Shown here: positions 9,113-35,799 of the stretch, in pieces
Layout of the letters: every line of letters begins with the position of its first letter
How positions within the stretch are numbered: the stretch's first letter is position 1
Assembly: GCA_025454375.1 (NCBI GenBank)
Contig: JALOOO010000019.1
Location: 1-36,238, forward strand
Length of the DNA: 36,238 bases
Direction: 5' to 3'
From: Leptolyngbya sp. Prado105
GTDB lineage: Bacteria; Cyanobacteriota; Cyanobacteriia; Leptolyngbyales; Leptolyngbyaceae
Made by a program: the position numbers and the translations under genes
Notes under the pieces: generated by a model
Databases searched by the model: none
What the model saw: only the letters and a program-made list of their open reading frames with translations
Told to the model about the DNA's origin: nothing

Positions 9113-10354
9113 ATGTATTATTCTCGAACCCTTACACAATTTGGCATTGGAGCGACAACCGCGATCGCACTAATTCTCAATTGTGCGATCGCTCGTGCGA
9201 ATCCAACGTTTGAAGACGCGGTTTTTAGACACATTAATGAGGTGCGTGCGAATCCTCAAGCCTACGCAACTTGGCTCAGCACTCAAAGACAGAACTATCA
9301 GAACAATCTTTTGCGTCTGCCCGGAAATGAGCGAATCCTCACGCATGAAGGGCTGTCTGCGATGGATGACGCGATCGCATTTCTGCGCTCTGCCCCGACG
9401 CTTTCTCCCCTGTCTGCGTCTGCTGAGCTTTCGAGCAGCGCTCGTAACTTTGGCAAAATTGCAAAGTCTCAACGGTTTCAGCAATTTCCTGGAGCGGTTG
9501 CAGAACTGCGGAGCCGCACTCAGAAAGACCCAATAGCAACTGTTTTACTCATGATTTTAAGCGATGGCGATCCGAATCGCAGTACGCGCACAACCTTGTT
9601 TCAACCGAACTATCAGACGGCTGGAGTTGCCTGTCGAGTTCAGTTTAGACTGAGTGAGTTTTGTGTAGTTGCGCTATCGAGTCCTCCGACTCCGCGATCG
9701 AGTCGTCCTGCTCAATCGACTCCCGTTCGTCCTGCTCCCGCCCGCTCAGCGACACGAGTGCAGCCGACCCCTGAATCGACCTCGCAGACTGAACAAGCGA
9801 TCGTCGAAGAAACGAATCGAATGAGAGCGAACCCAAGAGCTTATGCGGCTGAGCTTGAAGCTTTGAAGCAGTACTTTGAGGGGAGTCTGCTGAAGCTTCC
9901 GGGCTATCCTGCTCTCCAGACTCAAGAAGGCGTGGCTGTGGTTGAAGAAGCGATTCGAGATTTGAAAGCAGCATCGCCGTTGCCAAGGTTGTCCGTGTCT
10001 CAGGGAATGTCGCTTGGAGCAAGAGATCATGTTCTGGATTTAGGTCCGAAAGGCAAAGTCGGACATTATGGAACCGATGGCAGTAATCCATTCACGCGCA
10101 TCAATCGCTATGGAACCTGGCAGGGAAAAGCGGGCGAAAATATTAGCTTTAGCCCGATTCAAACGGCAAAATGGCATGTGATGCAGTTGATCATTGATGA
10201 TGGTGTGAAAAGTCGGGGACATCGAAAAACCTTGCTGAGTCCTGACTTTCGTGTGACGGGTTCTGCTTGTGGGAATCATACGGTCTATGGTCAGATGTGT
10301 GTGATGACTTATAGCAAAGACTATCAAGAAGGCAATGTTCAAGGTCGGAACTAA
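9113..10354 (+). CDS. Secreted protein with two CAP (SCP/PR-1) domains
   Basis: A 413-aa protein with a signal peptide (cleavage near IARA-NP, residue 29). Two related domains follow. Each opens with a helix reading E..N..R.NP.AYA and a stretch like LLRLPG / LLKLPGYP. The second domain (about 225-405) carries the complete CAP signature: the H in VGHYGTDG (~316), GENISF (~340), and SRGHR (~367) followed by the last strand. The first domain (about 30-195) keeps the fold-defining helix and the VACRVQF end but has lost the active-site His and the GEN motif. A Pro/Ser/Arg-rich linker joins them. CAP proteins are extracellular with varied functions. A long palindrome follows the gene. Confidence 0.88.
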   Translation: MYYSRTLTQFGIGATTAIALILNCAIARANPTFEDAVFRHINEVRANPQAYATWLSTQRQNYQNNLLRLPGNERILTHEGLSAMDDAIAFLRSAPTLSPLSASAELSSSARNFGKIAKSQRFQQFPGAVAELRSRTQKDPIATVLLMILSDGDPNRSTRTTLFQPNYQTAGVACRVQFRLSEFCVVALSSPPTPRSSRPAQSTPVRPAPARSATRVQPTPESTSQTEQAIVEETNRMRANPRAYAAELEALKQYFEGSLLKLPGYPALQTQEGVAVVEEAIRDLKAASPLPRLSVSQGMSLGARDHVLDLGPKGKVGHYGTDGSNPFTRINRYGTWQGKAGENISFSPIQTAKWHVMQLIIDDGVKSRGHRKTLLSPDFRVTGSACGNHTVYGQMCVMTYSKDYQEGNVQGRN

Positions 10355-10441: not shown

Positions 10442-12901
10442 ATGCTGCGCGATCGCAATCCTCTTATTGATCTTGATCCCGCCGATTGGTGCTGGGCAAC
10501 TTGGCGCAAACGCCCCCAATTAGAGCGTTCTAAACCGCAGCCATTTGAATTGGATCAGGCGATCACTCAACTCAAAAAAGCAAAACGATTGAAAAGTGGA
10601 CGTTGGAAATGGAATGACTGCGAGATTCCGGTTTCAATGTCGATCGAGGAAGCGAGATTCTGGGTTCATGCAATTGTGCGATCGTATCGATACGATCGCG
10701 TTCGAGACTTAGTTAGATATTTTGAAAGTACATCTTTAAGCAGTGCGATTGAAAGCTCTGAAATACAAGACTGGTTTACTTCATCTGCTAGCTGTGATGT
10801 TCCACCTCAGATGGCTGTTGCATTGAGTCATTTTTTATCTGTTGATCAGCTAATCGATCAATTATCAAATAGCTCGCATCGTCATCATTCAATATTTTTA
10901 GGGTTTAAGCAGCTAATTTTGCCTTACCTGAATGAGACAGAATTTGAAAAACTCAGAATTCATATTCAGGAAACTTGGGAACCTCAAAGATTCTACATGC
11001 GAATCTATCTCTCTAGTTTACTAGGATTGCAGAACTGGAATAGAGAGTTCATTGAAACCTTGACCCCTGAGAGAACTTATCATTCCTGCGATTTCAAATT
11101 TAGGCTAGGTGTGCTTTTTGGTTTGGAAAGTGCGGATTTAGTTGTGTATCATTCTCGTCGCTTAAAGTTGCGACTAGGGACATCAGAACAGGTTCGGGCA
11201 TGGTTAGCACATACAGAACTAACCGCACTAGAGTTCGTTGCAGAAAGTATTGCTGCAATCAAGAACAACCGAGAAGCGCAAAATGCTGTAGCGATGTTTG
11301 AGGTGCTGGCACTTGTTAGATCGCCAATAGTTGCTCCGCATGTGCTTCAGCTTGCTCAAAAGTCGCAAGTGCGTCATCAAGCGCAGGCATGGTTAGAGGA
11401 TAACCCAGAATTATCGATCGCTGGATTACTCCCACTCACGATTGCAAAACACCCTTTGGCAGAAACGGCGATCGCTTGGTTGAGAATGATGCAGCGTCAA
11501 GGCTATAGAGATTTTATCCGAGAACATATGAGTCCTGAATATCAGCAGATCGAATTGCAAATCTTTGATGCTCCGAAGCGAGAAGAACTCGACACAATGC
11601 CAGATTGGTTCACTGCGATCGTAGAATCTGCACAAAAGCTTGAGCCGCTCGATTGGGTAAAGCCGAGTGACTTACCCGCGATCGTAGTGGGTGAAACGCA
11701 ACTTTCAGAAGCTCAGCATCAAGCAATCTTGAACTTACTGCAAGCTGATCCAGAGAATCACAGCGCTATGTTAAAGCACTATGCAAATCCTGAATCACTC
11801 AGTCAATTTGCTTGGCAACTCTATGAGCGATGGGCATTGAAAAAACCAGCTTTCCAATCGGCTTGGGTGATATTAGCGCTAGGGCGATTGGGAGATGATG
11901 CGATCGCGTTAAAGCTAGCCGATCTGATTCGAGTATGGTGTAAGGCATCGTGGTATGAGCTTGCTACGGCTGGAATTGCTGCTTTAGCATTGATCGCTTC
12001 GGATCTAGCAATTTTTCAACTAATGCAATTTGCATATCAACCGATTTCTAGACTGATTCAACCCAATCAGGCATTGAATGCGATCGCAGACTCTCGCAAT
12101 CTTTCTCGTCGTCAACTAGAAGATTGTGCAATGCTGCAATATCTTCAGAAAAAATTCGCTCCACTGTCAAATTGGGAAAGTCGCAGTAGAAAAAACGAAC
12201 TCAAACAATTCTTTATGCTGCAAACTCTCCGATTTGAATATCAAATGGTTCACCGGGAAGCCTACACCCTTGAAGAATTTCAAGCATTATTTAACCCGCT
12301 ACTGTTCTCAATGACCCAAACCTTGATTTGGCAAGCCGAATCAACCTATTTTCGCATCACCGAGGATGGAACTCTCGCGGATAGTTCAGATTCCCCCGTT
12401 GAACTCGCTTCAGAAGTCAAAATTACTCTGGCGCACCCGTTAGAGCTTCCGGATCGTTTAATTTGGGCAGAGCTACTTGCTGACTATGAACTGATCCCAC
12501 CCTTTGCACAGGTCAATCGCCCAATATATTCTGTGTCAAGAGAGGAACAAGATGCTACGATTGTCACCCGATTCGTCGATCGAGGCGTGTTCACGGTCAA
12601 TTTAACTCAATCTCTGATGAAGCTAGGCTGGACTGAAACTTATATTGGGCGCGGACGCTGGCGCGGATACTGTAAGCGATTTTGTGCAGATGAGACAGTT
12701 GCAATTCTTGGCATGACTGAGATGCCGCGCACCTATTCTTATCAAGTGATCGATCGTATCTTCTTTCTCGCAAACGATTGGGATGGTCGGCGCATCCCCA
12801 CTGATGACGATCGTATGCTGCTTAAAACTGTTTCGCCACTCGTTTTCAGTGAAGTTCTCCGCGAAGTAGACCACCTTACCCACCGTTCACGCTATGCCTA
12901 A
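10442..12901 (+). CDS. DUF4132 domain protein, first gene of MoxR/VWA/SWIM operon (YehI-like)
   Basis: An 819-aa soluble protein of unknown biochemical function. Residues ~80-560 are helical and HEAT-like (repeated A..W and L..A.. helices such as [19 protein letters not shown]), suggesting a scaffold. The C-terminus is the recognisable DUF4132 region: [19 protein letters not shown] (~638), then [27 protein letters not shown] (~663-690), then the wing [21 protein letters not shown]. This matches the C-terminal half of E. coli YehI as I remember it, though the DNA-binding WGR domain found in some relatives is not apparent. The start ATG follows a probable promoter. The gene overlaps the downstream ATPase by 8 bases, showing translational coupling. 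It is probably a large partner of the MoxR ATPase. Confidence 0.78.
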
Positions 12902-13991
12902 ACGCGCTCAACCTGAACTTCAACGCCCCGCTGCCGAATCGCTCTACCTGGTAGAACTGAAGAAACTTGCTGAACTCGATCGATCTGCCCCTCGACCGGG
13001 CGGATGGAAACTGACTCCGCAATCGGTACTAAAATTTATTTTGGGCGATCGATCCCTTGGAATTACTCAAAAATTCGTCGGCAGTCGTGCCCAGTTGGAG
13101 CGCTGCATCGTCGCGTTAGCAACCAATCGCGGATTAATGCTGATCGGGGAACCGGGAACGGCAAAGAGCTATTTGAGTGAACTATTAGCAGCAGCAATTA
13201 GTGGCGATTCGACGCTAACAATTCAAGGTAGCGCAGGCACTACTGAGGACAATATCAAATACTCCTGGAACTATGCGCTCTTACTTGCAGAAGGTCCAAG
13301 TTCTCGATCGCTTGTATCTGCGCCGCTGCATCGTGGAATGAGCGAAGGCAAGATTGTGCGATTTGAGGAAATTACTCGCTGCCCTTTGGAGATTCAAGAT
13401 ACTTTGCTATCTGTATTAAGCGATCGTGTGATGAGCATTCCAGAACTACCGGATAGTAGTCGTAGCTTATACGCAAAGCTTGGGTTTAATGTGATTGCAA
13501 CAGCGAATACGCGCGATCGCGGGGTGAACGAAATGAGCGCAGCACTAAAACGACGATTTAACTTTGAGACATTACAGCCGATTTCAGACCTGAAGCAAGA
13601 AATTGATCTCGTCCAGCGCGAATCAAGTCGAATGCTCGCACAAGCGGCAATTCCAATCAGTCTAAGCCCTGATTTGACCGAAGTTTTAGTCACAACTTTT
13701 CGAGAATTGCGGACGGGACAAACTCAGGACGGGCGGACGTTTGAGCCATTAACGACGGTGATGAGTACAGCGGAAGCGGTTTCGGTCGCATATGCTTCGG
13801 CGATTCATGCTTATTACTACGGCGATCGCGAACCGACTCCTGAAAATCTCTTACATAGCCTGGTCGGTTCAGCCTTGAAAGATGCAACCGATGATCTCAA
13901 AAAGCTACGACATTACTTTAATCACGTAGTAAAAAATCGCCAAAATCAACTCTGGCAGGACTATTACGCTGCTCATCATCAGGTGCTGTAA
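12894..13991 (+). CDS. MoxR-type AAA+ ATPase of the operon (YehL-like)
   Basis: A 365-aa AAA+ ATPase. Walker A is GEPGTAKS (residues 85-92), Walker B is IVRFEE (154-159, with Glu in place of the usual Asp before the catalytic Glu), sensor 1 is [10 protein letters not shown] (Asn 205), and the arginine finger lies in ALKRRFNFE (~219). The spacing and the '[20 protein letters not shown]' layout are typical of MoxR/RavA ATPases, which act as chaperone-like remodelling rings together with VWA proteins. It overlaps the gene before by 8 bases and the gene after by one base (TAATG). The VWA protein two genes downstream is its expected partner. Its client is unknown. Confidence 0.9.
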
Positions 13992-16249
13992 TGGATTTTG
14001 ATACTTCAATTCTGAATTTAGATGCGAAGGTGATCTTCTTTCCAGTTCGCCATCATAGTCCTGTCTGTGCGCGATTGATTCGAGAATTAGCAACTCAGAT
14101 TCGCCCTGCTGCCATTTTGATCGAAGGTCCTGCGGATTTTAATCATCAGATTGATCAATTGTACTTGCCGCATCAGCTTCCGATCGCAATTTATAGCTAT
14201 GCTCATTTTGCGGATAATACTCGTTATGCGGCGTTCTATCCTTACTGTGTCTATTCTCCAGAATGGCAAGCCCTACAAATTGCAAAAGCATTAGAAATCC
14301 CGGCTAAATTCATCGATTTGCCCTGGTCAAAAATGGCAACAGCGAAAACTGCAAATCATCGATACCACGATCGAGGACTTCGCCAAAGTCAGTATGTTCA
14401 GTTAATCTGCGAAAAGCTGGGAATTGAAGGACTGGATCATCTCTGGGATCATTTGTTTGAGATTGATCCGACTCTATCTGTTGAAACTTATCTCGATCGC
14501 GCTCATCAGTTCTGTTTTCATTGTCGATCGCTTGATGAAGCAAGCCTTGAAGACCAGCGTCGTGAAGCTTTTATGGCTGAGCGAATTCGCCAAGCGATGG
14601 CAGTCTATTCTGGACAGATTCTGGTTGTTACAGGCGGATTTCATAGCTATGCGCTGTATGCTCGACTTGCTCAAGGCTCTGAGCTTGAAGACATTTCTAA
14701 TGAGGCGATTGTGCAACAAGGGATTGCACTGACTCCTTTTTCTTACGATCGCTTAGATAGTCTTACCGGATACGATGCTGGAATGCCAAATCCAGGGTTT
14801 TACCATCAGGTCTGGCATCATCGCACTCAGGGCACATCCATCTATCGAGCCGTTTTTACTGAGATTGTCATAGCTCTGCGATCGCATCGTCAACTTGTCA
14901 GCGCTGCTGATTTAATCGCGATCGAATCTGCTGCTTACGCTTTAGCAACCCTGCGAAATCATGCAGAGATTTGGAGGCAGGATATTATTGATGCGATCGT
15001 CACTTCTCTGATCAAAGAAGAAGTCACCACAACTCACCCGCTTCTCCGCGCTGTGCATGAAGTCTTTCGAGGTTCTGAACGCGGACAGCTTGCAGCAGGT
15101 TCAAGTCTGCCTCCCTTAGTACAAGACATTAAGCAACAATTGAAGCAGCATAATCTAGAACCACACCATATCGGGAAAATCGTTCGGCTAAATTTACTAG
15201 AAGAAAGCACGCGATCGCAAATCCTGCACCAACTTCGGATTCTACAAATCACAGGCTTTAATCGAACGGGGGGAATCGATTTTGCTTCACGTCAAGAGAT
15301 GGCGATTCAATGGGAAGAATGGTCGATCGCATGGAGTCCTGCTTTTGAAGGCAGTTGTATCGAAGCCTCGATCTATGGCTCTACTGCACTTGAAGCTGCT
15401 GAGATGCGGTTGCTAGAGATTGCGAAAAAGAGTGAACACTCTGAGACTGCGGCTCTACTTTTACTAGATGCTTGCTTGATGGGAGTGCAATCCCTAATTC
15501 GTCCCCTTTATCAACAGCTTCTTACTCTGATTCAATCTGATAGTCATTTCTTTACAGTTACTCGTGCATTGACGCATCTCCTCTACCTCTACTGCTACGA
15601 TGAGCAACTCAAAATTACCGAAAACGCAGACATTGAATCTCTCATAGAAGTTACATTTAGTCGTGCGCTCTGGTTACTTGAAAGCCTTGGACAAGTGCGA
15701 GATCAAGATCAGCCGCTTCTCGATGCTGTTAAAACTTTGCTTGAAACGACGCGCAGATGTACGTTTGTCGATCGTGCTGGATTTGTCGGTGTTTTGACTC
15801 GGACTAGCCAGGATCAGACTCAAATTCCAATTTTACGAGGAGCGACGATCGGCGCACTCTGGATACTCGATGAAGCTTCAACTGAATGCGTTTTAGTTGA
15901 TTTGGGTCACGTTTCTCATCCCGATCATTTGGGAGATTTTCTCACGGGTCTTTTTAGCATTGCACGGGAAATTGTCCAGCGTTCTTCAAGGTTACTAGAG
16001 CAAATCGATCAGATGGTTGCTCAGTTTGACGAGGACGCTTTTCTCGAAGCACTTCCCGCTCTGCGGCTTGCATTTACCTACTTCACCCCCAGAGAAAAGC
16101 ACATTCTCTCTCAGTCACTCGTAGAATTTTGGAATGTAACTGCTGCTGTGCCGCTTGAGAGTTCTGCTGTGCCGCTTGCGAGAGCGAAAGCGCTAGAATC
16201 GAGGCTAAAAAGCACGATCGAACACTATGGACTCAGAGGACTGTACTAA
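13991..16249 (+). CDS. DUF5682 family protein (YehM-like)
   Basis: A 752-aa protein. The N-terminal ~230 residues carry an apparent hydrolase-like core: FFPVRHHSPVCARL (His 21, His 22), AILIEGPADF (Glu 45), REAFMAERI (~191-199) and ILVVTGGFHSY (~210-220). The order His / Glu / Glu / GGxH resembles the erythromycin esterase-TraB/Tiki-ChaN fold, so a metal-dependent hydrolase activity is plausible (inference). The rest is helical. Near the end, VPLESSAVPLARA is encoded by a short imperfect duplication (16146-16184). It starts on the TAATG overlap with the ATPase and ends on a TAATG overlap with the VWA gene. It corresponds to YehM in the E. coli set. Confidence 0.8.
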   Translation: MDFDTSILNLDAKVIFFPVRHHSPVCARLIRELATQIRPAAILIEGPADFNHQIDQLYLPHQLPIAIYSYAHFADNTRYAAFYPYCVYSPEWQALQIAKALEIPAKFIDLPWSKMATAKTANHRYHDRGLRQSQYVQLICEKLGIEGLDHLWDHLFEIDPTLSVETYLDRAHQFCFHCRSLDEASLEDQRREAFMAERIRQAMAVYSGQILVVTGGFHSYALYARLAQGSELEDISNEAIVQQGIALTPFSYDRLDSLTGYDAGMPNPGFYHQVWHHRTQGTSIYRAVFTEIVIALRSHRQLVSAADLIAIESAAYALATLRNHAEIWRQDIIDAIVTSLIKEEVTTTHPLLRAVHEVFRGSERGQLAAGSSLPPLVQDIKQQLKQHNLEPHHIGKIVRLNLLEESTRSQILHQLRILQITGFNRTGGIDFASRQEMAIQWEEWSIAWSPAFEGSCIEASIYGSTALEAAEMRLLEIAKKSEHSETAALLLLDACLMGVQSLIRPLYQQLLTLIQSDSHFFTVTRALTHLLYLYCYDEQLKITENADIESLIEVTFSRALWLLESLGQVRDQDQPLLDAVKTLLETTRRCTFVDRAGFVGVLTRTSQDQTQIPILRGATIGALWILDEASTECVLVDLGHVSHPDHLGDFLTGLFSIAREIVQRSSRLLEQIDQMVAQFDEDAFLEALPALRLAFTYFTPREKHILSQSLVEFWNVTAAVPLESSAVPLARAKALESRLKSTIEHYGLRGLY

Positions 16250-17448
16250 TGGATGAACCTCTCACTCAAGCAATGCGCTGGAAGATTATCTTAGCAACAG
16301 ATGCAAGTTCCGGGTCTGGAGCCGCATCAGAAGCATGGCAGCGACGGGCAGAAGCTTTATCGTTTTTGTACGATCGAGAATATCAATCGCGCAATGTTCG
16401 CGCCTCTTGTCCTGGTAGCAAAGATTCCCCATCTGATTCCGGGTGTGCGGATGCAGGCAGTCAAGACTCGTCCTCTCATGCTCGTGAAGGCGGACTTGAA
16501 AATTCACAGTTGACGATTCCAGATTGGATTAACGAGATTCACGAACTTTTCCCCAAAAAGACGATTGAGCGATTAGAAAAAGATGCCTTAGAGCGATATC
16601 AACTCGAAGAAATGGTAACAAATCCAGAACTTCTCAGCCGAGCAGAACCAAGTTTAACCTTGCTAAAAGCCGTTCTCAGAACAAAGCATTTAATGAATCA
16701 AGCGGTGCTAGTAATGGCGCGACAGCTTGTTCAAAAAGTTATCGATCAACTTCTAGAGAAGCTTGCTCGTAAAATTCAATCTCCTTTCTTAGGTACAATC
16801 GATCGACAACATCGCTCCTCCTTAAAAATTGCTAAAAACTTCGATCCCAAAGCCACAATCCGTCAGAATCTCAGCACCTATGATCCTGACAGTAAAAGAC
16901 TTTTTATCAAAACGCCACACTTCTACTCTCGGATGCGTCGAAATCTCGATCGTTGGCAACTGGTCATTCTCGTCGATCAATCTGGCAGCATGATTGATAG
17001 TGTGATTCATGCTGCGGTGACTGCCTCAATTTTTTTTCAGCTTAAGCAGATTCGCACTCATCTTTGTATCTTTGACACTTCAATTGTTGATCTGAGCGAA
17101 CACTGTCCTGATCCGGTCGAAACTTTGATGCAGGTTCAGCTTGGAGGTGGAACAAATATTGGTCAAGCTTTGAACTATGCTGAGAGTTTAATGGACTATC
17201 CAAGAAATACACTGATTATCTTGATTACCGATTTCTACGAAGGCGCACCCCACGAAACGCTCTTTGCGACAACTCGCCGCCTCGTCGAAAGTGGAGCCAC
17301 CCTACTCGGACTTGCCGCACTCGACTCTGATGCCAATCCAAACTACGATCGCACTACGGCTCAAGAACTCGCCAATCTGGGAATGCAAATCGGCGCAATG
17401 ACCCCCGGAGAACTCGCCGAATGGGTTGCCGAGAAAGTGAGGAAGTAA
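16249..17448 (+). CDS. VWA (MIDAS) domain protein, CoxE/YehP-like
   Basis: A 399-aa protein with a helical N-terminal half (WINEIHELFPKKTIERLEKDALERY onward) and a C-terminal von Willebrand A domain from ~residue 235. The metal-ion-dependent adhesion site is intact: DQSGSM (243-248), Thr 302 in GGGTNIGQAL, and Asp 328 in LITDFYEG. In MoxR systems such proteins are the adaptor partners of the AAA+ ring. Residues ~52-82 form a Ser/Asp/Gly/Cys-rich, low-complexity insert (CPGSKDSPSDSGC...) between two otherwise well-ordered segments. This is unlike its neighbours and probably a variable linker. The gene is two bases upstream of the SWIM gene start. Confidence 0.9.
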   Translation: MDEPLTQAMRWKIILATDASSGSGAASEAWQRRAEALSFLYDREYQSRNVRASCPGSKDSPSDSGCADAGSQDSSSHAREGGLENSQLTIPDWINEIHELFPKKTIERLEKDALERYQLEEMVTNPELLSRAEPSLTLLKAVLRTKHLMNQAVLVMARQLVQKVIDQLLEKLARKIQSPFLGTIDRQHRSSLKIAKNFDPKATIRQNLSTYDPDSKRLFIKTPHFYSRMRRNLDRWQLVILVDQSGSMIDSVIHAAVTASIFFQLKQIRTHLCIFDTSIVDLSEHCPDPVETLMQVQLGGGTNIGQALNYAESLMDYPRNTLIILITDFYEGAPHETLFATTRRLVESGATLLGLAALDSDANPNYDRTTAQELANLGMQIGAMTPGELAEWVAEKVRK

Positions 17449-17449
17449 G

Positions 17450-19348
17450 ATGATTCGCGCAGACTTACTTGCATTGACATTAGATGATCTTGCGGTTCTC
17501 ACGAATCGAGGCATCGTCAATCGTGCCCAGAAAGAACTCGAACAATTTAGCTTTGAACTCATTCAAGAATCAAACCAAATTCGAGTGCAGTGGTCAGATC
17601 AAGTCGAATGCACTCTGCTCGATCGAGAAACATTGAGCGATCGACATTGCACCTGTTCTGCTTCGACGGTTTGCCGTCACCTTGTCCGTTCGATTCTCGC
17701 CTACCAACAATCCACTGCTTTCACCCCTCAAGCTTGGAACCCCGGTAAGATTTCAGATGAAGCACTTGCCAAACATTTTACTCCTTCTCAACTCAAGCGA
17801 CTGAAACAACAGTTTGAAAGCGATCAAGTGATTGAAGTTCAATGTAGTACAAAGCCCGTCGCAACTTTTCACTCGCTTGCTCACACCTTGCGGTTTCTTG
17901 TCCCGCACGATCTTCGATACACTCACTGCGATTGTTCTGATCCGGCTCCTTGTCAGCATGTGCCCCTAGCAATCTGGGCATTCCGTCAGCTTCACAATCA
18001 AACAAGTGCGATTGTCTCAACTGAATCTAATCTCACACCTCCAACCGCGCTCCTCAACGACCTCGAATCAGCCCTAAAACAGCTATTCCAGATTGGGCTA
18101 AATCATCTTACTCCAAGCTTAGTCAGCAAATTTCAGCACTGCGAACAGCAATGTCGTAACCTTGGCTTGATCTGGTTTGCAGAGATTTTAGTCGATTTAC
18201 TAGAATGCTGCGATCGCTATCAAAACCGAGATGCTCGATTCTCGCCCCACGAAGTCATCGCACTGATTGCCGAACTCTGCATTCGTCGAGATGCGCTCTG
18301 TTCTCAAGCTTGTAAAGTGCCGCATCTATTCATTGCAGGGACAAAGCAGGATCAAATCACTGAACTTAAAACTGCTCGCTTAATTGGTCTTGGCTGCGAA
18401 GTAAAGATGCGCCAAAAAAGCACAACGTTAACAAGCTACTTCCAAGACGCAGACACCGGAATCCTCACCGCATTCTCCAAAGAATTCGCCGATTTGTCCC
18501 CTTTCTCACATCTCGCAAAAAAGCCCGCCCTAAAGCAGCACACCTCAACCGAACTCGGCTCAAAACAACTCCTGATCCAACGCGCCAAACGATCGCCCGA
18601 TCTCCACCTCATTCCTGGACGATCGCCGTTCTCCCTCAACCCCCAATCCTTCCAATGGAACCAACTGCGATCGCCTCTCCTCGTCGAAGACTTCGCCGAA
18701 CTCTCCGCCCACTTACAACTCCTTCCCCCTGCCGATCTTCGCCCTCGCCGCCTCACAGAAAATCTCCATGTCCTCGCGATCGACAAAGTAACTTCTGTTG
18801 AATTCTCCCCCGTCGAACAGTCTGTCACCGCAATGCTCTGGGACTCTCAACAAAATTCGGTGCGGCTGAAATTTCCCTACTGCGATCGAGCAAGATCGGG
18901 CACAGAAGCTCTCCTCACGCACCTGACTCAGCACTCTCTGCGTTTCGTCTCAGGTCACATCACCTCCCGCAATCCACTGACGATTTCCCCGATCGGACTT
19001 GTCTTCGAGGATTGCTTTCTACAACCCTGGATTGCCGAGCATTCTGCTGAAACTGCTCCTGTCATCCCCAATTCAATTGTGAGCCGCGATCGCATCGAGG
19101 CTTACTTAGAAACTGTGGCAAATGCGATCTCCGATCTTCTCCTGCTCGGCATTGAGCAATCCAACCCCCGCACCCTGCAAACTTGGCAAGAAATCACCCT
19201 GCAAGGGAAAGAACTGGGATTTGAGACCTTGCCTGAAGCGATCAACGCTATCACAACCCAATTAAATGCCCCGGCTCAAAACGTTCCATCTCTTGTCCAA
19301 TCCATTCTCACCCTGTCCGTTCTACATCATCTTGTAACAAGGTTTTGA
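17450..19348 (+). CDS. Double SWIM zinc-finger protein (YehQ-like)
   Basis: A 632-aa protein with two SWIM-type zinc fingers (CxC-xn-CxH). The first is CTCSASTVCRH (Cys 67, Cys 69, Cys 75, His 77), followed by the usual hydrophobic helix LVRSILAYQ. The second is CDCSDPAPCQH (Cys 160, 162, 168, His 170), followed by VPLAIWAFRQL. SWIM domains bind zinc and mediate DNA or protein contacts. The remaining ~450 residues have no motif I recognise. The start follows TAAG directly after the VWA stop, and AGGAAG provides a Shine-Dalgarno. It is the last gene of the operon; the next gene is 179 bases away and no strong terminator is visible. It corresponds to YehQ in E. coli. Confidence 0.85.
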   Translation: MIRADLLALTLDDLAVLTNRGIVNRAQKELEQFSFELIQESNQIRVQWSDQVECTLLDRETLSDRHCTCSASTVCRHLVRSILAYQQSTAFTPQAWNPGKISDEALAKHFTPSQLKRLKQQFESDQVIEVQCSTKPVATFHSLAHTLRFLVPHDLRYTHCDCSDPAPCQHVPLAIWAFRQLHNQTSAIVSTESNLTPPTALLNDLESALKQLFQIGLNHLTPSLVSKFQHCEQQCRNLGLIWFAEILVDLLECCDRYQNRDARFSPHEVIALIAELCIRRDALCSQACKVPHLFIAGTKQDQITELKTARLIGLGCEVKMRQKSTTLTSYFQDADTGILTAFSKEFADLSPFSHLAKKPALKQHTSTELGSKQLLIQRAKRSPDLHLIPGRSPFSLNPQSFQWNQLRSPLLVEDFAELSAHLQLLPPADLRPRRLTENLHVLAIDKVTSVEFSPVEQSVTAMLWDSQQNSVRLKFPYCDRARSGTEALLTHLTQHSLRFVSGHITSRNPLTISPIGLVFEDCFLQPWIAEHSAETAPVIPNSIVSRDRIEAYLETVANAISDLLLLGIEQSNPRTLQTWQEITLQGKELGFETLPEAINAITTQLNAPAQNVPSLVQSILTLSVLHHLVTRF

Positions 19349-33987: not shown

Positions 33988-35799
33988 ATGAATATTGAGG
34001 AACTTGAAGGCAGTATTGAATCGATCGTGTTTACTTCCACCGAGACGGGATTTACGGTGGCACGGTTTCAGACTGTCGGAAAGAATCTCGTGACGATCGT
34101 GGGCAGTTTTATCAGTTTGAACCTGGGACAATCGTTGTTGCTCAGTGGAACTTGGCGGACGCATTCTCGCTATGGCTTGCAGTTTCAAGTCGAGCAGTAT
34201 AGCGAGGTCATGCCGGATTCGATCGCAAGTCTAGAAGCCTATTTAGCAAGTGGGGCGATTCAGGGGGTGGGGTCTGCGATCGCGAAACGAATTGTGGATC
34301 ATTTTGGGTTGGAGACGATTGAGATGCTCAATACTCAAATCGAGCGCTTGCGAGAAGTGAAGGGCATCAATCAAGCCAAGCTCGCTTTGATTAGGTCTTC
34401 TTGGCTAGAGCAGAAACAGATTCATGAAATCATGATGTTTTTGCAAAACTACGGGATTGGTCGAAGTCAGGCGGTGAAAGTCTTTAAGCGATATGGAGAC
34501 GATGCGATCTCAACGGTTTCAGCAAATCCGTATCAGCTTGCGGTCGATATTCGAGGCATTGGGTTTCACTCAGCCGATGGAATCGCAACTCAGTTAGGCA
34601 TTGCCCCGGATGCGGATACTCGGTATCGAAGTGCGATTTTGCACAGTTTACGTGAAGCGGGACGAGATGGGCATTGTTTTTTACCCCAAACGACTTTGAT
34701 CGAGAAATCGGCTCGGTTGCTTTCTCGTCCTGGGTACTCGGCAGAGCCTGAGCGTATCGAAGACCAACTGGTTTGGCTGGTTGCGGATGGAGAATTGTGG
34801 GTTGAAGAAAGCCGCAAATATCCGGGGCGGATGGGCTACTACTTGCCTGCATTTTATCGAGCGGAGTGCGCGATCGCGGAGCGTCTTAAGGTGCTTCTTA
34901 ACCAGGAGTTAGAAGTCAATTATGACTTTGTTGAGACCTGGATGCAGCAGTATTGTGAAACGTCGGATCTCATGCTTTCAGTCGAGCAGCGGCAAGCGGT
35001 CGTGCTGGCGGCAACGCAAAGAGTTGTGATTCTGACAGGGGGACCGGGTGTCGGGAAATCGCATACGACTCGTGCGATCGTTGAGCTTTGGGAAGCGATG
35101 GGAAAGCAAGTTCGTTTAGCATCACCGACTGGACGGGCTGCAAGACGACTTTCAGAATTGAGTCAGAGAGAGGCTTGTACTCTGCATCGATTGCTAGAGT
35201 ATGACCCGAGAAGTGGGTATTTTCAGCGGGATGAGACGCGCACGATTAAGGCGGATTGCGTTGTGATTGATGAGTTTTCGATGACGGACTTGTTTCTTGC
35301 GAATGCACTGTTCAAAGCGATTTCGATCAAGGCGCAGCTTCTGATCGTAGGCGATGTCGATCAGTTGCCGAGTGTGGGACCGGGAGCCGTGCTTCGCGAT
35401 TTAATTGCGTCTGAGCAAGTGCCTGTCGTGCGCTTAACTCAAGTTTGGAGACAGGCTCAAAGTTCGGCAATTATCTGTCATGCTCATGCGCTCAATCAGG
35501 GGGAAGTGCCCGAAATCGAGCGGTTTTCTCCGACTCCTGAATCGGATTGTTTATGGATCCCCTCGCACTCTCCGCAGCATGGCATTCAATGTATTCAGCA
35601 ATTGATTTCTGAAACGATCCCACAACTTGGATTTAATGCGTTTAATGATGTGCAAATCTTGTGTCCCATGATCAAAGGAGAAGTGGGCACAAAAGCACTC
35701 AATATCATGGCGCAGGCTTTGCTCAATCCGCCCAATGATAAGACGATCGAAGTTCAAGCTGAAGAGCTGTTCGGTCTTTATGATTTGCAGATGGTTTAA
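33988..35799 (+). CDS. recD2: RecD2-like DNA helicase, 3' end lost at a sequence junction
   Basis: An SF1B 5'-3' DNA helicase. Visible parts: OB-like N-terminus, helix-hairpin-helix repeats (AIQGVGSAIAKRIVDHFG and VKGINQAKL), Walker A LTGGPGVGKSHT (349-360), Walker B VVIDEFSM (426-432), and the conserved GDVDQLPSVGPGAVL (455-469) and QVWRQAQSS (485-493). Family members are ~740 aa. Here the match ends at about residue 587 (LNPPNDKTIE); the last 16 codons, to the stop at 35799, read through unrelated DNA. Motifs V and VI of the second RecA-like domain, and the SH3-containing C-terminal domain, are missing. The truncation is due to the junction at ~35750 and the product as given would be inactive. 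Confidence 0.9.
   Translation: MNIEELEGSIESIVFTSTETGFTVARFQTVGKNLVTIVGSFISLNLGQSLLLSGTWRTHSRYGLQFQVEQYSEVMPDSIASLEAYLASGAIQGVGSAIAKRIVDHFGLETIEMLNTQIERLREVKGINQAKLALIRSSWLEQKQIHEIMMFLQNYGIGRSQAVKVFKRYGDDAISTVSANPYQLAVDIRGIGFHSADGIATQLGIAPDADTRYRSAILHSLREAGRDGHCFLPQTTLIEKSARLLSRPGYSAEPERIEDQLVWLVADGELWVEESRKYPGRMGYYLPAFYRAECAIAERLKVLLNQELEVNYDFVETWMQQYCETSDLMLSVEQRQAVVLAATQRVVILTGGPGVGKSHTTRAIVELWEAMGKQVRLASPTGRAARRLSELSQREACTLHRLLEYDPRSGYFQRDETRTIKADCVVIDEFSMTDLFLANALFKAISIKAQLLIVGDVDQLPSVGPGAVLRDLIASEQVPVVRLTQVWRQAQSSAIICHAHALNQGEVPEIERFSPTPESDCLWIPSHSPQHGIQCIQQLISETIPQLGFNAFNDVQILCPMIKGEVGTKALNIMAQALLNPPNDKTIEVQAEELFGLYDLQMV

Follow-up and report, generated by a model that had tools for sequence, protein, structure and literature searches.

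A five-gene yeh-type operon of Leptolyngbya sp. Prado105 may encode a MoxR-VWA machine with a TIKI/TraB-like DUF5682 subunit

Several of the known systems built on a MoxR ATPase and a VWA protein have a known target or a linked client. NorQ/NorD, CbbQ, RavA/ViaA and CoxD/CoxE are systems of this kind, a MoxR AAA+ ATPase with a VWA partner, and Kaur et al. (2020) describe other MoxR-vWA pairs in conflict systems, according to the main text of that paper (PMC7159879). YehL of Escherichia coli appears as a recognised MoxR subfamily in excerpts of two papers (PMC3893208, PMC11432383). Here we describe a five-gene operon with a YehL-type MoxR in a 36,238-nucleotide stretch of Leptolyngbya sp. Prado105 (contig JALOOO010000019.1, positions 1 to 36,238, forward strand; hereafter the window). 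The operon recurs across many phyla, and we give a probability of about 0.45 to the reading that it encodes one multi-protein machine consisting of a motor, a TIKI-type hydrolase and a nucleic-acid-associated scaffold.

An earlier note on this DNA had placed five co-directional genes at 10442-19348 and taken them for one coupled unit. An open reading frame (ORF) check returned exactly these coordinates, and the plus-strand ORFs overlap or nearly touch, as expected for such a unit:

10442..12901, + strand: DUF4132 protein (YehI-like), 819 aa (ORF, Pfam, E. coli match)
12894..13991, + strand: YehL-subfamily MoxR AAA+ ATPase, 365 aa, Walker A GEPGTAKS (Pfam, E. coli match, tree)
13991..16249, + strand: DUF5682 protein (YehM-like), 752 aa (Pfam, E. 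coli match, fold comparison)
16249..17448, + strand: VWA_CoxE protein (YehP-like), 399 aa (Pfam, E. coli match, MIDAS patterns)
17450..19348, + strand: SWIM zinc-finger protein (YehQ-like), 632 aa (motifs, E. coli match, predicted fold)

The DUF4132 and MoxR genes share an 8-base overlap (ATGCCTAA), and the MoxR/DUF5682 and DUF5682/VWA junctions are TAATG each, all as described before; the last junction, VWA/SWIM, is TAA-G-ATG, with a gap of one base rather than the two given in the note. Pfam assigned the first four proteins to DUF4132 (1.4e-28), AAA_5 (1.5e-35), DUF5682 (2.7e-119) and VWA_CoxE (4.1e-49), and the scan made no family call for the fifth, the SWIM zinc-finger protein.

We compared the window proteins with E. 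coli K-12 by BLASTP and recovered yehI (2.9e-27), yehL (7.4e-137), yehM (3.2e-91), yehP (2.3e-128) and yehQ (5.7e-38) in identical order, so the likeness to the yeh locus proposed in the earlier note is real and extends to gene order and strand. Identity was highest for MoxR (55%) and VWA (54%), followed by DUF5682 (32%), SWIM (26%) and DUF4132 (26%, C-terminal part only). The K-12 region contains yehI, yehK, yehL, yehM, yehP and yehQ and differs from the window in that yehK sits between yehI and yehL, that YehI is 1210 aa long compared with 819 aa for the window DUF4132 protein, and that extra WGR/DUF4132 pieces, yehF and the pseudogene yehH, lie upstream. We did not detect yehK relatives in the compared loci (phmmer, 1e-3). 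Of 5426 complete E. coli genomes, 5301 (~98%) have DNA matching yehL-yehQ, with the match spanning at least 80% of the length in 5162 of them, and 5320 of 5322 places were chromosomal. The operon genes are thus known part by part in E. coli; in the literature searched, we found no description of the mechanism, no functional study of the yeh genes or of five-family combinations, and no occurrence of the term 'DUF5682'. A gene set carried by ~98% of complete E. coli genomes and by many phyla therefore has no published function in that literature.

We then asked how often the five families occur together. A scan with a MoxR alignment over one genome for each of 84,980 species gave at least 593 stretches, at least 582 of which encode a relative; a single-protein DUF5682 search of genome contigs had found nothing. 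The locus set consisted of the best 80 of the at least 582 MoxR relatives, picked by MoxR alone; it holds the closest ones and so leans to the window's own cluster type (type A, below). These loci span Planctomycetota, Verrucomicrobiota, Pseudomonadota, Myxococcota, Actinomycetota, Bacillota, Spirochaetota, Bacteroidota, Armatimonadota and Melainabacteria. Because some genes of high-GC loci were masked in the ORF coordinates, families were placed by domain coordinates. DUF5682 was present in 78 of the 80 loci, VWA in 72, SWIM in 70 and DUF4132 in 66, many of the misses being contig ends. Among the 64 loci with at least 9 kb upstream and at least 8 kb downstream, all five families were found in 58, the four other than DUF4132 in 61 and the window's exact gene order in 45; MoxR, DUF5682 and VWA were consecutive among the five families in 59. 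The incomplete flanked loci lack DUF4132 (L033, L036, L051), VWA and SWIM (L087) or VWA, SWIM and DUF4132 (L111), or hold MoxR and DUF4132 only (L041). L041 and L063, which has a shorter upstream flank, are the two of the 80 loci that lack DUF5682, and in both the DUF5682 gene lies on another contig of the same genome; the lone cyanobacterial DUF5682 gene of genome G055 has a MoxR elsewhere in that genome.

The association was also observed from the DUF5682 side. In 198 evenly drawn Actinomycetota genomes, DUF5682 occurred in 17 and MoxR (E up to 1e-40) in the identical 17; the chance of this is 6.5e-25 if genomes are independent, an assumption that does not hold. Copy numbers of the two genes agree across the 17 when two pieces in G110 are counted as one gene, and six of the 17 genomes have 2-3 MoxR copies. 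The 17 genomes contain 25 DUF5682 places: a hidden Markov model (HMM) found MoxR near 23, an overlapping ORF hid it at the 24th (L146), and the 25th (L145) lies in the split genome G060. VWA accompanied 23 of these places and a SWIM-type protein 21, some with weak scores. DUF4132 was found in 11 of the 198 genomes (one below the family cut-off), nine of them among the 17, and it is thus the loosely tied member. Sequence and synteny thus document both the gene set and its co-inheritance: the arrangement is far beyond chance from the MoxR side as well as the DUF5682 side, and the five families do co-occur across phyla, as the earlier note had supposed.

Among the window's relatives, 16 of 58 genomes (its own included) have a DUF5682 match, and these revealed a second cluster type. 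Nine (L018-L021, L023-L027) carry type B, with the order SWIM-DUF5691-MoxR-DUF5682-VWA, and three carry type A, namely the window, L029 of the same genus and L030. Of the remaining four, L028 is a lone gene, L031 a fragment, L013 a gene on a 3.3-kb contig and L022 a gene at a contig start with no VWA gene after it. The SWIM proteins of the two types are homologous (profile E 4.6e-7, 82 columns), whereas profile comparison detected no relationship between DUF4132 and DUF5691; the conserved core is therefore MoxR, DUF5682, VWA and SWIM, with an exchangeable partner. DUF4132, one of the five members in the earlier description, is accordingly not obligatory. Type B was also observed in L124-L137 and L141 (Actinomycetota) and in L117 (Deinococcus plasmid); some of the Actinomycetota clusters have SWIM and DUF5691 together on the opposite strand. 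In L138-L140, L142, L143 and L147-L148, which are Actinomycetota variants, DUF5682 lies in long stop-to-stop frames (possibly GC-inflated) and the SWIM match is weak or missing.

Some copies have decayed. MoxR pieces, one with stops, were found in G007, a genome of the same genus (L151, G007:C109), and a DUF5682 fragment in G016 (L031, G016:C128), and the DUF5682 gene of the type B cluster L020 is split by one stop. On an Iodobacter plasmid typed as mobilizable (L118, 3427-20831), a type A cluster with insertion sequence (IS) elements adjoins a type I restriction-modification set, and the annotation of this cluster splits the SWIM protein in two. Plasmid carriage looks rare, since several of the 40 plasmid records matched by MoxR (1e-40) are chromosome-sized entries. 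The sole match in the phage collection was a DUF5682 protein on an unverified, unannotated faecal 'phage' scaffold (L119, MT835988.1), which is possibly bacterial DNA.

The motor pair agrees with the earlier description as a MoxR AAA+ ATPase with a VWA protein whose metal ion-dependent adhesion site (MIDAS) is intact. The window MoxR has Walker A, Walker B-like, sensor 1 and arginine-finger patterns, and the strict forms of these were found in 64, 82, 62 and 83 of 84 type A MoxR rows, respectively. We assign it to the YehL subfamily on the basis of AAA_5, the identity to YehL and its tree position apart from type B. In the midpoint-rooted tree, built from type A and type B MoxR rows only, an 83-row group that includes the window and E. 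coli lies on one side of a 100/99 branch, and the nine cyanobacterial type B rows fall into a clade of their own (100/100). The window and L029 are placed first with a Melainabacteria locus (95/87), and this group is joined by Planctomycetota, Verrucomicrobiota and a Steroidobacter bin (100/89). L030 is placed outside this larger group, beside a spirochaete (98/67, a weakly supported branch), and the type A copies observed in cyanobacteria are therefore not one lineage. A MoxR sequence search of the PDB returned five midasin sequences and one ClpC1. The window VWA protein has the complete MIDAS signature (DQSGSM, GGTNI, TDFYEG); in 75 VWA rows, DxSxS[ML] was found in 75, GGT[ND]I in 70 and the third pattern in 48. 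Ahead of its conserved part, at residues ~47-82, lies a Ser/Cys/Gly-rich stretch with no clear counterpart in YehP.

DUF5682 had been suggested to contain a TraB/EreA-type core, and its predicted structure agrees: residues ~7-300 form an alpha/beta domain that matches the parallel beta-sheet core of the TIKI/TraB/EreA/ChaN fold, and the C-terminal half is predicted to be a helical repeat. More than half of the protein is helical, and helical-repeat proteins fill the structural match list. The putative active-site residues that the note had proposed to look for are there. In a 53-row alignment from many phyla, R20, H21, E45, D109, E157, R191 and H218 are identical in 53/53 rows as well as in two aligned type B sequences. 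The main motifs map as follows (codon positions counted from the ORF start at 13991):

14045..14062, + strand: codons V19-R20-H21-H22-S23-P24, putative catalytic His21/His22 (R20, H21, S23 and P24 in 53/53 rows; H22 in 52/53)
14123..14131, + strand: codons E45-G46-P47, putative catalytic Glu45 (E45 and P47 in 53/53; G46 in 51/53)
14561..14575, + strand: codons R191-E192-x-x-M195, Arg191 at the place of the TIKI basic residue (R191 and M195 in 53/53; E192 in 52/53)
14633..14644, + strand: codons G215-G216-x-H218, second putative catalytic His (G215 and H218 in 53/53; G216 in 46/53)

The TIKI reference set comprises two His, two Glu and a basic residue. His, Glu, Arg and His were found at matching strand and helix positions, and no second Glu was identified. 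Sequence-level matches were weak: a ChaN profile gave E 0.0031 with a probability of 10%, and ChaN (10 rows), TraB (3) and DUF5694 (3) were among 35 families that weakly matched the 53 rows. Alignment with hhalign to four EreA sequences and one TraB sequence was not significant, and a DUF5682 sequence search of the PDB found nothing (best E 0.83). A TraB query matched no PDB chain, and the identity of the Tetrahymena chain therefore rests on a figure legend. On the predicted structure and the conserved columns, the N-terminal domain is well supported as a TIKI/TraB-like hydrolase fold, in which the motifs RHHSP, EGP, RExxM and GGxH are (nearly) invariant, a prediction that is new relative to the literature searched.

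The SWIM protein of the window contains two CxCx5CxH motifs followed by a helical region, a predicted tandem OB fold (residues 301-522) and C-terminal helices. The description as a double-SWIM zinc protein thus fits the window protein, but a second motif was detected in no more than 32 of 65 homologues, whereas the first, CxCx(n)CxH, is found in 66 of 69 rows. Pfam SWIM was detected in 31 of 39 homologues and not in the window protein. In the predicted structure, the two OB folds are packed as in RPA, LEF-3 and HIN-200, a well supported model-based likeness that was absent from the literature searched; single-OB matches (AB5 toxin B subunits, tRNA synthetases) were taken as generic OB matches. 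Net charge is +6 over residues 301-410 and -3 over 410-524, and the OB region has few conserved basic or aromatic columns. By its predicted fold, the SWIM/OB protein may bind nucleic acid. Five Bacillota loci (L082, L089, L091, L099, L103) have a small ORF of about 92-111 aa behind the SWIM gene.

The 43 locus-linked DUF4132 proteins that we scanned included 17 with WGR and eight with HEAT_2, and the window protein itself has no WGR domain. Tandem DUF4132 genes occur (e.g., L047, L041, L092), with up to four DUF4132 stretches per locus, which suggests that this subunit has been duplicated and has diverged. The window genome has another DUF4132 gene on a different contig (G000:C8:3400-3954). 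In Deinococcus radiodurans, DUF4132 and WGR genes rise when DdrO is depleted, as reported in an excerpt (PMC8533742).

If the five proteins form a complex, as we infer, the MoxR ring and the VWA protein would capture a protein and mechanically remodel it, as other MoxR-VWA pairs do, and the TIKI-type domain would cleave or hydrolyse the remodelled protein or a product that remodelling exposes. The SWIM/OB subunit, together with WGR in many relatives, would bring the machine to single-stranded DNA, RNA or nucleoprotein, and DUF4132, or DUF5691 in the sister type, may serve as an exchangeable helical scaffold or adaptor. A narrower version, which we regard as a long shot, is an ATP-driven bacterial nucleoprotein protease with a logic like that of p97-SPRTN. 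Here the RPA-like SWIM/OB protein, aided by WGR, would find exposed single-stranded DNA or RNA with a stuck or crosslinked protein, MoxR-VWA would unfold that protein and the TIKI-type DUF5682 would cut it.

One alternative is a chaperone that matures a single enzyme by inserting its metal or cofactor, like NorQ/NorD or CoxD/CoxE, perhaps linked to molybdenum. The VWA protein does belong to VWA_CoxE, and we take the WGR/DUF4132 genes beside E. coli yehL to be those once named molR. In an excerpt of one source, molR is mapped to 47.3 min and given as a regulator of molybdenum utilization (PMC4245954). A Deinococcus paper repeats the connection of WGR/DUF4132 proteins with MolR, and its authors report that molybdate genes did not change (PMC8533742). 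No recurrent client enzyme was seen beside the operon: among the 122 flanking proteins taken from 73 loci (of 146 candidates), no Pfam family occurred more than three times. Clustering of 718 flank ORFs yielded no client-enzyme candidate; the largest groups were generic, with response regulators at 12 loci and MATE transporters at 5. To our knowledge, cofactor chaperones have neither a TIKI-like domain nor a SWIM/OB protein, which also counts against this explanation, and we consider it unlikely. A stress or conflict (anti-phage-like) system of the MoxR-VWA ternary kind would fit the patchy spread of DUF5682 (16/58 and 17/198 genomes), the broken remnants, the plasmid copy next to restriction-modification genes and the multiple MoxR copies in 6/17 Actinomycetota. 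Such a role sits poorly with a locus found in 5301/5426 E. coli genomes and chromosomal in 5320/5322 places. PADLOC models gave one match in the five operon proteins (E 0.011) and, at 1e-10, at most 10 matches in the 122 flanking proteins, from ten models with one member each and no control set: six PDC-S01 (candidate system) models plus dGTPase, GlgB-like, desaturase-like and mad2. The 25 most frequent of the 114 Pfam families in the flanks included no third component or effector of a ternary conflict system, and the bpMoxR model scored the window MoxR at 23 bits, below its cut-off of 27. The words SWIM, TIKI and DUF4132 are absent from the main text of Kaur et al. (PMC7159879). We judge this alternative distinctly improbable.

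Remodelling could also proceed with DUF5682 as a catalytically dead scaffold in a general remodelling or chaperone complex whose OB domains bind protein and in which nucleic acid plays no part. Protein binding is common among OB folds, and the helical bulk of DUF5682, the HEAT repeats in 8/43 DUF4132 proteins and the missing second Glu of the TIKI set are all consistent with this. A dead scaffold would have no obvious need for the invariant R20, H21, E45, D109, E157, R191 and H218, however, and we judge this alternative, too, distinctly improbable. Of the roles that the earlier note had listed, remodelling is the best supported, and defence and a dedicated metal-cofactor client found no support in the neighbourhoods. 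The flanks make a dedicated client enzyme, a defence island or SOS control less likely. Control by SOS/LexA was not supported, as operators were not enriched upstream of the operons: four LexA consensus types gave 0, 1, 0 and 0 matches compared with 1.8, 2.0, 1.7 and 1.1 expected. A loose Deinococcus-type motif gave 2 matches compared with 0.8 expected. Promoter-like matches (8 vs 10.8 in shuffles) and terminator-like matches (7 vs 8.4) showed no excess. Elsewhere in the window, a CAP-domain protein is encoded immediately upstream of the operon (9113-10354) and a RecD2-type helicase farther downstream (33988-35799), and the window also encodes a CpeS-like protein.

New here are the fold predictions, the division into two types and the close association of MoxR with DUF5682; with this linkage and the two predicted folds, what was a set of DUFs becomes a machine open to direct testing in a laboratory strain. 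The type B clusters of cyanobacteria, actinobacteria and Deinococcus share MoxR, DUF5682, VWA and a homologous SWIM protein with the window and differ by DUF5691 in the place of DUF4132. The ternary conflict systems likewise combine MoxR and vWA with further proteins, but the window MoxR falls under the bpMoxR cut-off. We know of no DUF5682 or SWIM/OB protein in NorQ/NorD, CbbQ, RavA/ViaA or CoxD/CoxE. DUF5682 resembles the TIKI/TraB/EreA/ChaN superfamily in its predicted N-terminal fold and in the positions of His, Glu, Arg and His, and differs from it by RHH where ChaN and EreA rows have the GETH/GEASH strand motif, by a large helical C-terminal half and by its tie to a MoxR-VWA motor. If the proposed machine is real, the MoxR-VWA chaperones would gain a class coupled to a hydrolase.

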